Assembly: GCA_018825385.1 (NCBI GenBank)
Contig: JAHJEX010000017.1
Coordinates: forward strand, 1-37,553
Length of the DNA stretch: 37,553 nt
Direction: 5' to 3'
Origin: Patescibacteria group bacterium
GTDB lineage: Bacteria > Patescibacteriota > Patescibacteriia > UM-FILTER-42-10
The translations under genes were made by a program, and so were the position numbers. Positions 6,823 to 37,469 of this stretch are shown here, piece after piece. Each line of letters starts with the position of its first letter. Position 1 is the first letter of the stretch. The notes under the pieces were generated by a model. The model had not been told where the DNA came from. It did no database searches and saw only the letters and a list, made by a program, of their open reading frames with translations.

Positions 6823-8232
6823 TTATCCAACGCTCCCTTCCATTTGGAGCTGAATTAGCCTGTTCATTTCTAATGCATATTCTAGCGGCAACTCTTTTAC
6901 AATAGGTTCAATAAATCCGTTTACCACCAAAGCTTCCGCTGATGCTTCATCAAGCCCTCTGCTCATTAAGTAAAAAAGTTGATCTTCCCCTATTTTTGAG
7001 ACGGTTGCTTCATGTTCTACCTGAACATTTTGATTGTTTACTTTCATGTCAGGGTACGTATCAGAACGGGATGATTTATCCAGTATTAATGCGTCACAAA
7101 CAACCTTGGCTTTTGAATTATTAGCTCTTGGCGTCATCTGTAATAGCCCACGATAAGATGTTCGACCACCGTGCTGACTGATAGATTTTGAAATTACTCT
7201 ACCTGAAGTTTCCGGCGCTGCATGAATAATTTTTCCTCCAGCATCCTGATGTTGTCCTTTCCCGGCATAAGCTATAGAAAGAATCTCACCCCTAGCCTTT
7301 CTGCCCACTAAATAGCAGCTGGGGTACTTCATAGTAAGTTTTGATCCTAAGTTACAATCAATCCACTCACCAATCCCTTCTTCTTCTATGAGCATTCTTT
7401 TTGTTACAAGATTGTAAACATTGTTACTCCAGTTCTGAACGGTAGTATAACGAACGCGTGCGCCTTTTTTTACAATAATTTCTACAACAGCCGAATGAAG
7501 AGAATCAGTTGTGTAGATAGGTGCTGTGCAGCCTTCCACATAATGTACATAGCTTCCTTCATCTGCAATTATCAAAGTGCGCTCAAACTGTCCCATATTA
7601 GCAGCATTGATTCTAAAATATGCCTGCAGAGGGAGCTTAACTTTCACTCCTTTCGGAACATAGATAAAGGAGCCGCCTGACCATGTTGCTGAATTAAGAG
7701 CCGCAAATTTGTTGTCATTTAACGGAATAATCTTACCAAAGTATTCTTTCACTAAATCAGGATACTTTCTTAATGCACTATCCATATCTAGAAAAATTAC
7801 TCCGTCTTTGGTAAGTTCTTTCTTTAAAGAATGATACACCATCTCAGAATCATATTGAGCCCCCACTCCCGCTAGAAGTTTTTTCTCCGCCTCCGGAACA
7901 CCTATCCGATCATAAGTTGTTTTAATATCTTTTGGTAAATCTTCCCAGGTCCGGGCTTGTTTATCGGTAGGTTTGATGTAGTAATAGATATTGTTGAAGT
8001 TCGTCTTCGAAAGATCTCCGCCCCATTTGGGCATTGGCCTTTCTTGAAAGTATTTGTATCCCTTAAGGCGAATTTTAGTCATCCAACCCGGTTCATTTTT
8101 ATGCCATGATATTTCTTTCACCACTTTTTCATCAATTCCTTTTCGTGTTCGAAAAACAAAACTATCTGGCATAGAAAATCCAAATTTGTATTTGTCTGTA
8201 ACCAGTTTTTCTGTTTTTTTATCTTTTTGCAT
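6823..8232 (-). CDS. sufB: SufB, Fe-S scaffold subunit
   Basis: Core scaffold of the SufBCD complex on which the Fe-S cluster is built. Typical sequence blocks are present: [11 protein letters not shown]-like [81 protein letters not shown], the Cys in [10 protein letters not shown] (near residue 382) and [21 protein letters not shown]. The 469-aa length is normal. It starts two bases after the HD-domain gene and ends two bases before sufD. Confidence 0.97.
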
Positions 8233-28551: not shown

Positions 28552-28655
28552 TGGCTCCGGGGGCAGGACTCCCCCTCGCTCCGACTCGGGTACCTGGGCG
28601 CTGCGCACCGAAAGCTGCACCAGCTCGCTTTCTCTCGCGCCCTTCTCGTCCTGCC
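28552..28655 (-). pseudogene. Degenerate tRNA-Asn copy with inserted palindrome
   Basis: The 20 bases 28552-28571 repeat exactly the 3' end (with CCA) of tRNA-Asn at 28698-28717. Further into the copy only short matches remain, for example GAGCTGGTGCAGC against GAGCTGGTACAAC of the D arm (about 28609-28621). The rest is GC-rich sequence absent from the intact gene. GGCAGGAC (28562-28569) and GTCCTGCC (28648-28655) make a terminal inverted repeat. Confidence 0.6.
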
Positions 28656-28662
28656 AAAGTAT

Positions 28663-28696
28663 AAAAATAGTACCACTCAATGGTGATACTATTTTT
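28663..28696 (-). terminator. Hairpin terminator after tRNA-Asn 1
   Basis: AAAAATAGTA (28663-28672) pairs with TACTATTTTT (28687-28696), with additional CCACT/TGGTG pairing inside. It lies one base after the encoded CCA. Confidence 0.75.
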
Positions 28697-28697
28697 A

Positions 28698-28773
28698 TGG
28701 CTCCGGGGGCAGGACTCGAACCTGCGATATCCACGTTAACAGCGTGGCGTTGTACCAGCTCAACTACCCCGGA
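28698..28773 (-). tRNA. tRNA-Asn (GTT), copy 1, CCA encoded
   Basis: The minus strand folds as a complete cloverleaf: acceptor TCCGGGG/CCCCGGA, D stem GTTG/CAAC, anticodon stem CCACG/CGTGG with loop CTGTTAA (anticodon GTT), T stem GCAGG/CCTGC with loop TTCGAGT, discriminator G (28701) and encoded CCA (28700-28698). It differs strongly in stems from the second tRNA-Asn at 30174-30248. Confidence 0.95.
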
Positions 28774-28785
28774 ATAAACAAAAAA

Positions 28786-28810
28786 CCAGTCTCATATGAC
28801 TGGCATCTTT
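28786..28810. terminator. Short terminator upstream of tRNA-Asn 1
   Basis: CCAGTC pairs with GACTGG around TCATAT, with As on one side and CATCTTTTTT on the other. It separates the tRNA from the transcript of the 206-aa orphan, or acts on read-through from either side. Confidence 0.65.
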
Positions 28811-28927
28811 TTTGGAAACAAAACTAGGCCAGTCAGATCTGGTTATTATTACTATTTAGCTTAACAGTTTTCTTTTCCATATATAATGTTTATCGCAAAT
28901 AGGAAATATTGTCAAATAATCATTAAA

Positions 28928-28976
28928 AGAAAAACGACCCGTATCAGTATGGTTAACTGATGCGGGCCGCCGTTTT
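28928..28976 (-). terminator. Terminator of the 206-aa orphan
   Basis: On the minus strand a long imperfect stem (ACGGCGGCCCGCATCAGT with ACTGATACGGGTCGT) is followed by TTTTTCTTTTA. The 15 bases 28924-28938 recur exactly at 29923-29937 in the next terminator. Confidence 0.78.
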
Positions 28977-29041
28977 CAAGGCCAGAGAACTAAGGTTAAA
29001 GGCCAGAGAAGGCCAAAACTCTCAAGTCCAAAGGACTCAAG

Positions 29042-29662
29042 CTACTTTGCGAAGCGAACCGCAGGCTCACCGCCGTGCCAGACATCGTCGAGCCAGTTCC
29101 AGTACAACACCACCCCACCACCGCGCACGCACAGACACGGGACGTCGAGGCTACCATTGCGGCGCTGCACAACTGACTTCCAGAAATAGACGACAATGTT
29201 GCCAAACGCTTTCTGGAAAGAAGCGACTCCGAGCTTTTGGATAGCCAGGGCGTCCTGCAGGTTACCACAGGACCCAAGCATGTTGTTCTTCTTGAGATGG
29301 TTGTAGATCACTTGACCAGTGACGATGCCCTTTTTCTGGTTGTCGTGCAACCACAACGATATCGCCGTGGCAATGTCGTACTCGACAAGACCCGCGCTTT
29401 CCAACCCGGGATGCATGACCTTTTTCACGAAGTCAGGGTAGGTCGGCTTAATGGAACGATCGATGTGGACGATGGTAGTGACAGGAATTTCTTTCTTGGG
29501 CGCAATCGGAATGATAGTGGCAGATCCTTCAACAACCCGTTTGAATTGGGCAAGAAAGTCACCTTCACATGCACGTTTGATAAGTGTGTTGGTCCAGTCG
29601 CCGCGCCGGAACGCTGCTTTCAGTTCTCCGGCTTGATCAACGTCGAGCATTAAGTCACTCAT
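29042..29662 (-). CDS. CPR-type orphan protein of 206 aa
   Basis: No known function. The N-terminus (DVDQAGELKAAFRRGDWTNTLIKRACEGDFLAQF) and the C-terminus (aromatic and Gly-rich: YFWKSVVQRR, CVRGGGVVLYWNWLDDVWHGGEPAVRFA) match a layout I remember as frequent, and multi-copy, in candidate-phyla genomes; that memory is not verified here. The middle (60-150) is a mixed region with HIDRSIKPTYPDFVKKVMHPGLE. The ATG at 29662 follows AAGGAG by seven bases. GC-rich, single-gene. A very stable hairpin sits about 80 bases upstream (29739-29788), suggesting control at RNA level. Confidence 0.75.
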   Translation of the reverse strand: MSDLMLDVDQAGELKAAFRRGDWTNTLIKRACEGDFLAQFKRVVEGSATIIPIAPKKEIPVTTIVHIDRSIKPTYPDFVKKVMHPGLESAGLVEYDIATAISLWLHDNQKKGIVTGQVIYNHLKKNNMLGSCGNLQDALAIQKLGVASFQKAFGNIVVYFWKSVVQRRNGSLDVPCLCVRGGGVVLYWNWLDDVWHGGEPAVRFAK

Positions 29663-29738
29663 GGTTGACTCCTTTAGTTTTGCAACGGGGTTCTTACGAA
29701 CGGTGTTGCGGTTTTATATGCCAGCGGACTACGCTTTG

Positions 29739-29788
29739 TAGCCATAGCCAGAAAACCTCAATTCTTCAAGGTCTTTTGGCTATGGCTA
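29739..29788 (-). promoter_or_regulatory. Long stable leader hairpin of the 206-aa orphan
   Basis: A 20-base arm (29739-29758) pairs with 29769-29788 with 18 of 20 positions matching, around a 10-base loop. The closing 12 pairs (TAGCCATAGCCA/TGGCTATGGCTA) are perfect. No T-tract follows on either strand, so it is not an ordinary terminator. It lies about 77 bases before the start codon and may be a regulatory leader or small RNA. Confidence 0.6.
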
Positions 29789-29924
29789 TCTTACTATGCA
29801 AGTAGCTTTTCAAGGTGCTAGATGACAACCAATATTAGTATGGAATGGCCATTTTGTCAATAGTTTGACTTTCACCCGAATTCAATATAACCGAAAAAAT
29901 CCAATAATAAAACGAAATATTGAT

Positions 29925-29960
29925 AAAAGAAAAACGACGAGTATTAAACTCATCATTTTT
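29925..29960 (-). terminator. Terminator after the second tRNA-Asn locus
   Basis: Minus-strand GATGAGT pairs with ACTCGTC and GTTTTTCTTTTA follows. The tail is shared with the terminator at 28928-28976. Confidence 0.75.
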
Positions 29961-29962
29961 CT

Positions 29963-30135
29963 ATGGCTCCTGGAGTCGCCTGCCCGCCTTTGCTAGAGGC
30001 AAAGCCGATGGCGGGCGGGGACTCGAACCGACAACCCCGTATGTCGCTTCGCTCCTATGGGGCCATGCCTACCGGTTAACAGCCTCCGCCGGAGGCGGAC
30101 CCGCCTTTGGCGGGGGTTACCTAGCTACCAATATG
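29963..30135 (-). pseudogene. tRNA-Asn copy broken by three palindromic insertions
   Basis: Blocks of the intact tRNA-Asn at 30174-30248 recur in order here: the 3' end with CCA (29964-29978), the T arm ACTCGAACCGACAA (about 30021-30034), the anticodon region CCTACCGGTTAACAGCC (about 30068-30084) and a weak D-arm match near 30115-30130. Between them are GC-rich inserts at about 29978-30019, 30035-30067 and 30085-30114, each palindromic (for example TCCGCCTCCGGCGGA and CCCGCCAAAGGCGGG). The 5' acceptor strand is not recognisable, so it should not make a working tRNA. Confidence 0.78.
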
Positions 30136-30173
30136 GATAAAAAAACATTTTTTAAAAACAAAGATACACATTT

Positions 30174-30248
30174 TGGCTCCTGGAGTCGGGCTCGAACCGA
30201 CAACCTACCGGTTAACAGCCGGTTGCTCTACCATTGAGCTATCCAGGA
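30174..30248 (-). tRNA. tRNA-Asn (GTT), copy 2, CCA encoded
   Basis: Acceptor TCCTGGA/TCCAGGA, D stem GCTC/GAGC, anticodon stem ACCGG/CCGGT with loop CTGTTAA (anticodon GTT), T stem GTCGG/CCGAC with loop TTCGAGC, discriminator G at 30177 and encoded CCA. It is an independent isoacceptor, not a recent copy of the tRNA at 28698. Confidence 0.95.
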
Positions 30249-30292
30249 AGACAAAATGTGTATCTTTATGTTGTTTTTAGTATATCATTGAG

Positions 30293-30514
30293 CTACTTTC
30301 TACCTTGACCAGATTTAAGGAACTTTTCCCTGGCCATCGCCCCTTCCTTAGTCTGATGACTTTCACTATAGATCAGAATGAAAGGTTTATTTTCTCTTGC
30401 CCATTTATTACATCCTCGATTATGTTCAACAAGCCTTTCTGTAGCTGATTTACTGGTATATCCGACATATTTTTTCCCATTTTTCAGGCTTTTGTTAATA
30501 TATACTGTATACAT
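30293..30514 (-). CDS. GIY-YIG domain protein, short
   Basis: A 73-aa single-domain protein of the GIY-YIG nuclease family (UvrC N-terminal/YhbQ-like). It has YTVYIN, KYVGYTSKSATERLVEHN with the catalytic Arg, and the C-terminal AMAREKFLKSGQGRK with the Glu. Such small proteins cluster with host repair or are leftovers of homing nucleases; activity not known. The palindromic remnant TCCCCACCAAGGGCGGG lies just upstream (about 30537-30553). Confidence 0.85.
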   Translation of the reverse strand: MYTVYINKSLKNGKKYVGYTSKSATERLVEHNRGCNKWARENKPFILIYSESHQTKEGAMAREKFLKSGQGRK

Positions 30515-30633
30515 TTTTTACAACTTATATAGTCCCCACCAAGGGCGGGTCCAGGGATATATAATTTGCAAGCTTATCTGAAAATTATCACGTGAATATA
30601 TTTATAATCTATTCTTGGATTTTTGTAAAGTTT

Positions 30634-36776: not shown

Positions 36777-36864
36777 TGGCGGAAGGGGCGAGATTCGAAC
36801 TCGCGAGAGCTTTCACTCTACTTGCTTTCCAAGCAAGCGCACTAGGCCACTATGCGACCCTTCC
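36777..36864 (-). tRNA. tRNA-Ser (GGA), CCA encoded
   Basis: Class II tRNA with a long variable arm. Acceptor GGAAGGG/CCCTTCC, anticodon stem CTTGC/GCAAG with loop TTGGAAA (anticodon GGA), variable arm near TAGAGTGAAAGCTCTC, T stem CGCGA/TCGC type with TTCGAAT, discriminator G at 36780 and encoded CCA (36779-36777). Confidence 0.93.
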
Positions 36865-36877
36865 GAGATATCTTAAT

Positions 36878-37117
36878 CTAAGATACTAATTTCTTGAATG
36901 CTTCTCCTCCCTTATACTTTTTTATTTGTTTTTCTCTGAACCAAGCTGTCTTTTTATCTTTAAATTGTTCTCGAGGGACTAAGATCCATAAACCTTTGTT
37001 TCGAGTTGAACGGTTAGCACCAGAATTATGATGTCTTAGACGGTCTTCCAAATTGGCCGTCATCCCTATATAGTATTTGCCACTATTCTGACTTTGGATA
37101 ATATAAACTGTATACAT
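36878..37117 (-). CDS. GIY-YIG domain protein 2
   Basis: A 79-aa single-domain GIY-YIG protein: YTVYIIQSQNSGKYYIGMT, LEDRLRHHNSG with the catalytic Arg, and WFREKQIKKYKGGEAFKKL with the Glu. Similar to but distinct from the copy at 30293. A fragment of a third copy is immediately upstream (37180-37240). It is directly adjacent to tRNA-Ser. Confidence 0.85.
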   Translation of the reverse strand: MYTVYIIQSQNSGKYYIGMTANLEDRLRHHNSGANRSTRNKGLWILVPREQFKDKKTAWFREKQIKKYKGGEAFKKLVS

Positions 37118-37179
37118 GTGTGTAAATTAGCTTTTCCCGCTTTTAGCGGGACGATCTCTCCGTAGAGTTTTTATTCGGA

Positions 37180-37240
37180 GATTAGCTTTTTGAATGCCTT
37201 TCCTCCTTCATATTTCTTTGTTTGAATGAGTCCTTCGACT
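37180..37240 (-). pseudogene. C-terminal remnant of a third GIY-YIG gene
   Basis: The minus strand reads QTKKYEGGKAFKKLISE then stop, which matches REKQIKKYKGGEAFKKLVS of the intact gene at 36878. Upstream of the remnant the sequence changes abruptly into a palindromic element (about 37228-37320), so the 5' part of the gene is missing or separated. Confidence 0.75.
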
Positions 37241-37320: not shown

Positions 37321-37469
37321 AATATAATTTTCCTCTTACACTGCCACTGCGGGGCGACCTCTCCTAAAGTATGACCTATTATACTTACTTTAGCATAAAA
37401 ATCAATACTATAGGGTAATGTCTAAACACATTTGGCACTTTCTACTAATATTAAGTAATGTGTATAAAT

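Follow-up and report, generated by a model that had tools for sequence, protein, structure and literature searches.

Two tRNA-Asn genes, each accompanied by a broken second copy of itself, raise the question of how a working tRNA gene comes to lie beside pieces of its own sequence. They are located in a stretch of 37,553 nucleotides of patescibacterial DNA, in the following called the window, which is one contig of a 1.27-Mb genome assembled in 90 contigs (G000) and containing 45 tRNAs. A first-pass annotation, made from the letters of the window alone, had described two intact tRNA-Asn genes, each followed on the same strand by a broken copy, and this description was borne out by ARAGORN, Rfam, and pairwise alignment, including the exact CCA ends of the downstream copies (20 nt at the locus designated A and 15 nt at the locus designated B) and their coordinates. 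It was incomplete in that it lacked the pieces of Asn B upstream of the intact gene and an open reading frame (ORF) for a GIY-YIG protein at 30293-30514. The features of the two loci are the following, with t denoting positions of the tRNA:

28552..28571, minus strand: displaced 3' end of tRNA-Asn A, t57-76 with CCA (20/20 identical)
28572..28658, minus strand: hairpin-rich insert preceding the displaced 3' end of A
28698..28773, minus strand: intact tRNA-Asn(GTT) A (ARAGORN; Rfam, 68.6 bits)
29925..29960, minus strand: terminator-like hairpin past the displaced end of B, common to the related genome G002; most likely native 3' flank
29964..29978, minus strand: displaced copy B, t61-75 with CCA (15/15 identical)
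29979..30018, minus strand: hairpin insert 3 of copy B (fold -20.9 kcal/mol, p = 0.015)
30019..30036, minus strand: displaced copy B, t44-61, T arm (94.7% over 19 columns)
30037..30067, minus strand: insert 2 of copy B, an imperfect palindrome, not significant alone (fold p = 0.55 versus shuffles)
30068..30084, minus strand: displaced copy B, t29-45, anticodon arm (17/17 identical)
30085..30116, minus strand: hairpin insert 1 of copy B, double CCGCC-N3-GGCGG (pattern matches at 30086 and 30101)
30114..30136, minus strand: D-arm region of displaced copy B in degenerate form, about t16-27 (comparison with tRNA B by eye)
30160..30173, minus strand: 3' arm of an inverted repeat enclosing intact tRNA B (fold; comparison with G002)
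30174..30248, minus strand: intact tRNA-Asn(GTT) B (ARAGORN; Rfam, 71.8 bits)
30249..30267, minus strand: 5' arm of the same inverted repeat, pairing with 30160-30173 (compensatory changes in G002)
30286..30295, minus strand: upstream fragment t8-17 of Asn B (TAGCTCAATG), whose TAG is the stop codon of the GIY-YIG ORF
30293..30514, minus strand: alpha-type GIY-YIG ORF beside Asn B (73 aa; PF01541, 51.1 bits; C end apparently truncated)
30524..30561, minus strand: weak t1-7-like piece (TCCCTGGA), then a GC hairpin, 5' of the nuclease (by eye, uncertain)

Between the two loci there is a 206-aa ORF (29045-29662) without a Pfam match. At Asn A, the displaced 3' end matches the intact gene with an E value of 2.8e-8 in the pairwise comparison, and the insert contains a D-arm-like stretch of 13 nt (28614-28626; match to GAGCTGGT), the D-arm match shared with the intact gene being 8 nt long; the copy as a whole folds with -43.6 kcal/mol, and no nuclease gene adjoins this tRNA. 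At Asn B, the blocks t29-45, t44-61, and t61-75 are kept in order and are exact or near-exact, with inserts between them. Three palindromic inserts had been proposed for this copy; the outer two are unambiguous hairpins, whereas the insert between them, which as cut folds no better than shuffled sequences, amounts at most to an imperfect palindrome. The upstream pieces of Asn B flank the GIY-YIG ORF, t8-17 lying on one side and the weak t1-7-like piece on the other, and the intact gene is nested within the pieces of the native one.

Neither ARAGORN nor Rfam detected a working tRNA in the broken copies. Were the copies interrupted tRNA genes that are spliced, for example by way of group I introns, relatives would provide a precedent, because tRNA-Asn genes there are interrupted at 34|35, with group I introns at the loci L093 and L094 (L074 is another of the interrupted genes) and an insert with an HNH-like ORF in the genome G001, whose tRNA halves are identical to the tRNA of G000. 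However, Rfam recognized neither a group I nor a group II intron in the window, the pieces are always adjoined by an intact tRNA, and they lack parts of the molecule. At this locus splicing is therefore refuted, and we give it practically no weight as an explanation.

Comparison with relatives bears on which of the two 3' ends at Asn B is the native one. In G001, the syntenic tRNA-Asn after rpoD is single and has no broken copies. In G002, the same place contains t1-12, a hairpin, about t13-27, the intact tRNA-Asn, t43-52, a hairpin, and t53-75, and the displaced 3' end with the terminator behind it is common to G000 and G002. The intact tRNA-Asn of G002 carries compensatory changes in the acceptor stem; its acceptor and T stems differ while the displaced end is native, which could be later drift and is not so in G000. 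As the 3' end and terminator are shared by both genomes and the intact gene of G002 has changed, sequence comparison indicates that the displaced 3' piece at Asn B most likely represents the original end of the gene. Two compensatory A-U to G-C changes between G000 and G002 in the inverted repeat around intact Asn B (30160-30267; 1475-1600 of L070) suggest that its pairing has been kept. A same-species pair with and without the element was not seen among the genomes compared.

Partial same-strand copies of their own sequence lie close to many of the 45 tRNAs of the genome. Exact same-strand matches of at least 12 nt within 300 bp were found upstream of 31% and downstream of 24% of the tRNAs, compared with 3.4% and 3.3%, respectively, when tRNAs were matched to the flanks of other tRNAs, and on the opposite strand no exact match of at least 12 nt occurred within 300 bp. 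Chance as the source of the copies is excluded by the 24% against 3.3% in the control and by the empty opposite strand. An insert-tolerant alignment placed about 12 of the 45 tRNAs above the 2% control level after removal of matches to neighbouring tRNA-like genes (those of Cys/Gly-gcc and Ala-cgc, which derive from such genes, are left out of the displaced-copy count), and more can be recognized by eye. The usual layout is that of 5' pieces upstream and 3' pieces downstream of the intact tRNA. The pieces of Ile-tat (t1-36 and t37 onwards) and of Phe-gaa (t1-22 and t23 onwards) are exactly complementary, so that the intact gene sits within a broken one. The retained parts vary widely between loci, and many of the tRNA blocks that lie between hairpins match the intact gene with 100% identity. 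A row of several broken units is found at tRNA-Tyr, suggestive of a repeated event, and at tRNA-Cys and tRNA-Ser older nuclease remnants and older pieces are found further upstream. Near-exact tandems of broken tRNA units, in two copies, precede the intact Glu-ctc, Ser-tga, Gln-ctg, and Leu-gag genes (L030, L043, L059, and L044).

Three loci, Asn A, Pro-tgg, and Gln-ttg, retain t57-end alone downstream, as would be expected if integrase-borne elements had entered tRNA 3' ends and had then been lost, leaving duplicated CCA ends as attachment-site scars. The duplication, however, is not limited to the 3' end: 5' pieces upstream are equally common, and some redundant copies are nearly whole. We rejected attachment-site scars on these grounds, and as inspection of the ORF list of the window also revealed no integrase beside the copies, we hold this origin to be very improbable.

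The second element of the arrangement is the nuclease gene. At Asn B, it is located 51 bp upstream of the tRNA, and a third tRNA of the window, tRNA-Ser(GGA), has the same arrangement:

36777..36864, minus strand: intact tRNA-Ser(GGA) (ARAGORN, Rfam)
36878..37117, minus strand: alpha-type GIY-YIG ORF 5' of tRNA-Ser(GGA), 50 bp from the tRNA (PF01541, 53.3 bits)
37130..37161, minus strand: displaced tRNA-Ser 5' piece with hairpin insert (by eye)
37171..37224, minus strand: C-terminal remnant of an older GIY-YIG gene (by eye)
37332..37364, minus strand: older tRNA-Ser-like 5' piece (by eye)

The genome contains 17 PF01541 matches, which fall into an alpha group, for the most part tRNA-adjacent, a beta group lacking this adjacency, and UvrC; about eight tRNAs are adjoined by a GIY-YIG gene. 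The alpha proteins have about 80 amino acids and a GIY-YIG catalytic domain (PF01541, 51-56 bits) in which Y5, Y16, G18, R27, H31, and E51 are invariant in eight of them. At several loci, the stop codon of the nuclease gene is a conserved TAG at t8-10 of the tRNA or tRNA piece. Beta-type genes (L052, L057, L058, and L066) are flanked by short repeats of the CCCGC-TTTC-GCGGG type.

With a single alpha protein as query, 80 named loci were obtained from Patescibacteria, Ignavibacteria, Bacteroidetes, Omnitrophota, Opitutaceae, and others; in 42 of them a tRNA is no more than 100 bp away, and in 41 of these it is on the same strand. Pieces of the same tRNA (exact matches of at least 12 nt) on the far side of the nuclease were present at 41% of the 29 loci with the nuclease upstream (control, 1.2%) and at 50% of the 18 loci with the nuclease downstream (control, 1.1%). 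This is an enrichment of 30-fold or more, and the end matches the side, 5' pieces being found if the nuclease is upstream and 3' pieces if it is downstream; the working gene and the displaced end are thus separated by the endonuclease. Near-complete redundant copies occur elsewhere (t17-77 at L170, t1-76 with one 22-nt hairpin at L156, and t7-76 at L150). A search of 95 genomes of the class, run with one query protein from each group, served as a control: a tRNA lay within 300 bp on the same strand at 17 of 30 alpha loci, whereas the sister group, beta, gave 1 of 30, on the other strand. Four of 12 scanned tRNA-less alpha loci of the class adjoin tmRNA or RNase P RNA. Alpha genes on the same strand as an adjacent tmRNA or RNase P RNA were observed at L226, L228, L243, and L241; no displaced copies were found at the tmRNA loci, and the RNase P locus yielded a 13-nt match only. 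Many alpha genes have no displaced piece, and some lack an RNA gene in their vicinity. The broken tRNA-Asn copies are part of this multi-phylum pattern, in which a small GIY-YIG gene lies beside a tRNA, the tRNA is intact, and pieces of it are displaced; the parallel decay at two Asn loci envisaged at first does not describe a pattern that is genome-wide, extends over several phyla, and includes tRNA-linked nuclease genes.

The hairpins between the pieces constitute a third element. A search of the genome, as had been suggested earlier, revealed related repeats: CCGCCNNNGGCGG has 30 copies, about 17 of them near tRNAs, versus 0 for the reversed control. The inserts are about 15-65 nt in length. 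Others of the same type lie inside three protein genes, glyS, prsA, and an OTC-like gene, where they keep the reading frame and are gaps against solved homologues in the PDB (GlyRS, PrsA, and OTC-like). They are apparently present within an open dnaJ frame too, and also in a broken copy of 5S rRNA that immediately precedes the intact gene (L042, about 7682-7900, contig C53 of G000). The in-frame palindromes of glyS, prsA, the OTC-like gene, and dnaJ were located in L103, L105, L050, and L102. That of prsA (L105, 463) nearly equals the palindrome in the displaced copy of Ser-tga (L043), and the sequence flanking it (CAGTCTTA/AAAACAGT) is similar to the anticodon arm of tRNA-Ser. Rickettsia palindromic elements (RPEs) are small palindromes that occur in frame in protein genes and within RNA genes. 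The resemblance to them that had been pointed out holds for behaviour, the Rickettsia elements belonging to another host group, and the hairpins are best seen as a palindromic family of their own, RPE-like in behaviour, that persists in redundant pieces.

These inserts lend some substance to a rival explanation in line with the first-pass annotation, according to which ordinary tandem tRNA duplicates decay and RPE-like palindromes enter the spare copies because this does no harm; the nuclease would then be a passenger. Inserts of this type also occur in protein genes and in the broken 5S copy, some redundant copies are nearly complete (L150, L170), and the exact tandem units before the Glu, Ser, Gln, and Leu tRNAs represent local amplification. 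Yet neither the tRNA adjacency of one GIY-YIG subfamily and not of its sister nor the far-side position of pieces with the matching end is explained in this way, and we consider decay as the whole explanation unlikely, though worth keeping in mind.

Insertion of hairpins into tRNA loops, which looked obvious by eye, was discarded as 9 of 20 inserts are in loops compared with 10.7 expected (p = 0.84). Insert sites do recur at the same tRNA positions (10 coincident pairs versus 2.6, p = 0.002, in a small hand-anchored set). The lack of loop enrichment and the wide variation in the tRNA parts kept at different loci also speak against the broken copies being functional RNAs that act as tRNA-like leaders or decoys in regulating either the nuclease or the intact tRNA. 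Such a role would fit the perfect identity of many blocks between hairpins, the covariation of the inverted repeat around intact Asn B, and the control of T4 homing endonuclease mRNAs by hairpins (PMC2988022), but identity to a nearby copy can equally reflect recent origin or gene conversion, and we regard regulatory RNAs as quite improbable.

We consider it probable that the small free-standing GIY-YIG genes are homing-type elements that land in tRNA genes, where homing itself is what we infer from the arrangement of the sequences. The nuclease would cut the tRNA gene of a recipient, and repair from the carrier would copy in both the nuclease and a substitute tRNA half, by which the intact tRNA would be re-made and the native half displaced. 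Repeated rounds would give rise to several pieces, and nuclease genes may be lost later. At Asn B, an upstream event, the nuclease of which is still there, and a downstream event would together place the intact gene within native pieces; Asn A would have undergone a downstream event whose nuclease has since gone. Redundant pieces would tolerate hairpins because they presumably no longer work, and the hairpins may also make the pieces less homologous to the intact gene or prevent renewed cutting; conceivably they guard the element against deletion by recombination as well. The earlier idea of duplicate copies as safe sites for insertion would accordingly cover no more than the later part of these events. 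The ends of the displaced pieces are scattered over many positions of the tRNA, and hence no single insertion site is defined; tandem duplication of a tRNA followed by insertion of the nuclease between the copies would look similar. A more far-reaching version is doubtful, but conceivable: a class of minimal GIY-YIG elements, found in many bacterial phyla, that specialises in genes for structural RNAs (chiefly tRNA, with some members beside tmRNA and RNase P RNA), re-makes the host tRNA on entry, and by its own nuclease also drives hairpins into the displaced copies, repeatedly at the same sites within conserved tRNA motifs.

The closest parallels are known from other systems. Mobile ORFs of fungal mitochondria carry a gene end with them, as in atp6 of Allomyces and in atp6, atp9, cox2, and nad3 of Glomus (PMC3630166). 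As in the loci described here, a free-standing endonuclease ORF separates a new gene end that works from the native end that has been displaced; their targets, however, are mitochondrial protein genes instead of bacterial tRNA genes (PMC3630166), and in our case either end can be displaced and the pieces contain hairpins. SegB of phage T4 is a free-standing GIY-YIG homing endonuclease that promotes inheritance of the T4 tRNA region, and it resembles the alpha genes in being an intron-less GIY-YIG gene among tRNA genes. It differs in that it is located between phage tRNA genes and targets the intergenic tRNA region, and the available part of the article describes no displaced, hairpin-bearing tRNA copies (PMC2988022). 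Published insertions in rRNA genes likewise include GIY-YIG ORFs outside group I and group II introns and many short inserts without ORFs, but they are inside the rRNA genes, no re-made copy is reported for them, and tRNA is not mentioned in the main text. In the literature searched, outside of which lie most subscription journals and preprints, we found these parallels only and no earlier account of tRNA-linked GIY-YIG genes.

A nuclease gene family thus appears to have colonised tRNA genes, which are essential and well studied, in several bacterial phyla. If this is true, it would provide a route for the replacement, duplication, and movement of tRNA genes and would account for the scattered tRNA pseudogenes of small genomes. 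It would also suggest what a set of small GIY-YIG proteins probably does, and offer a testing ground for the spread of RPE-like hairpins.
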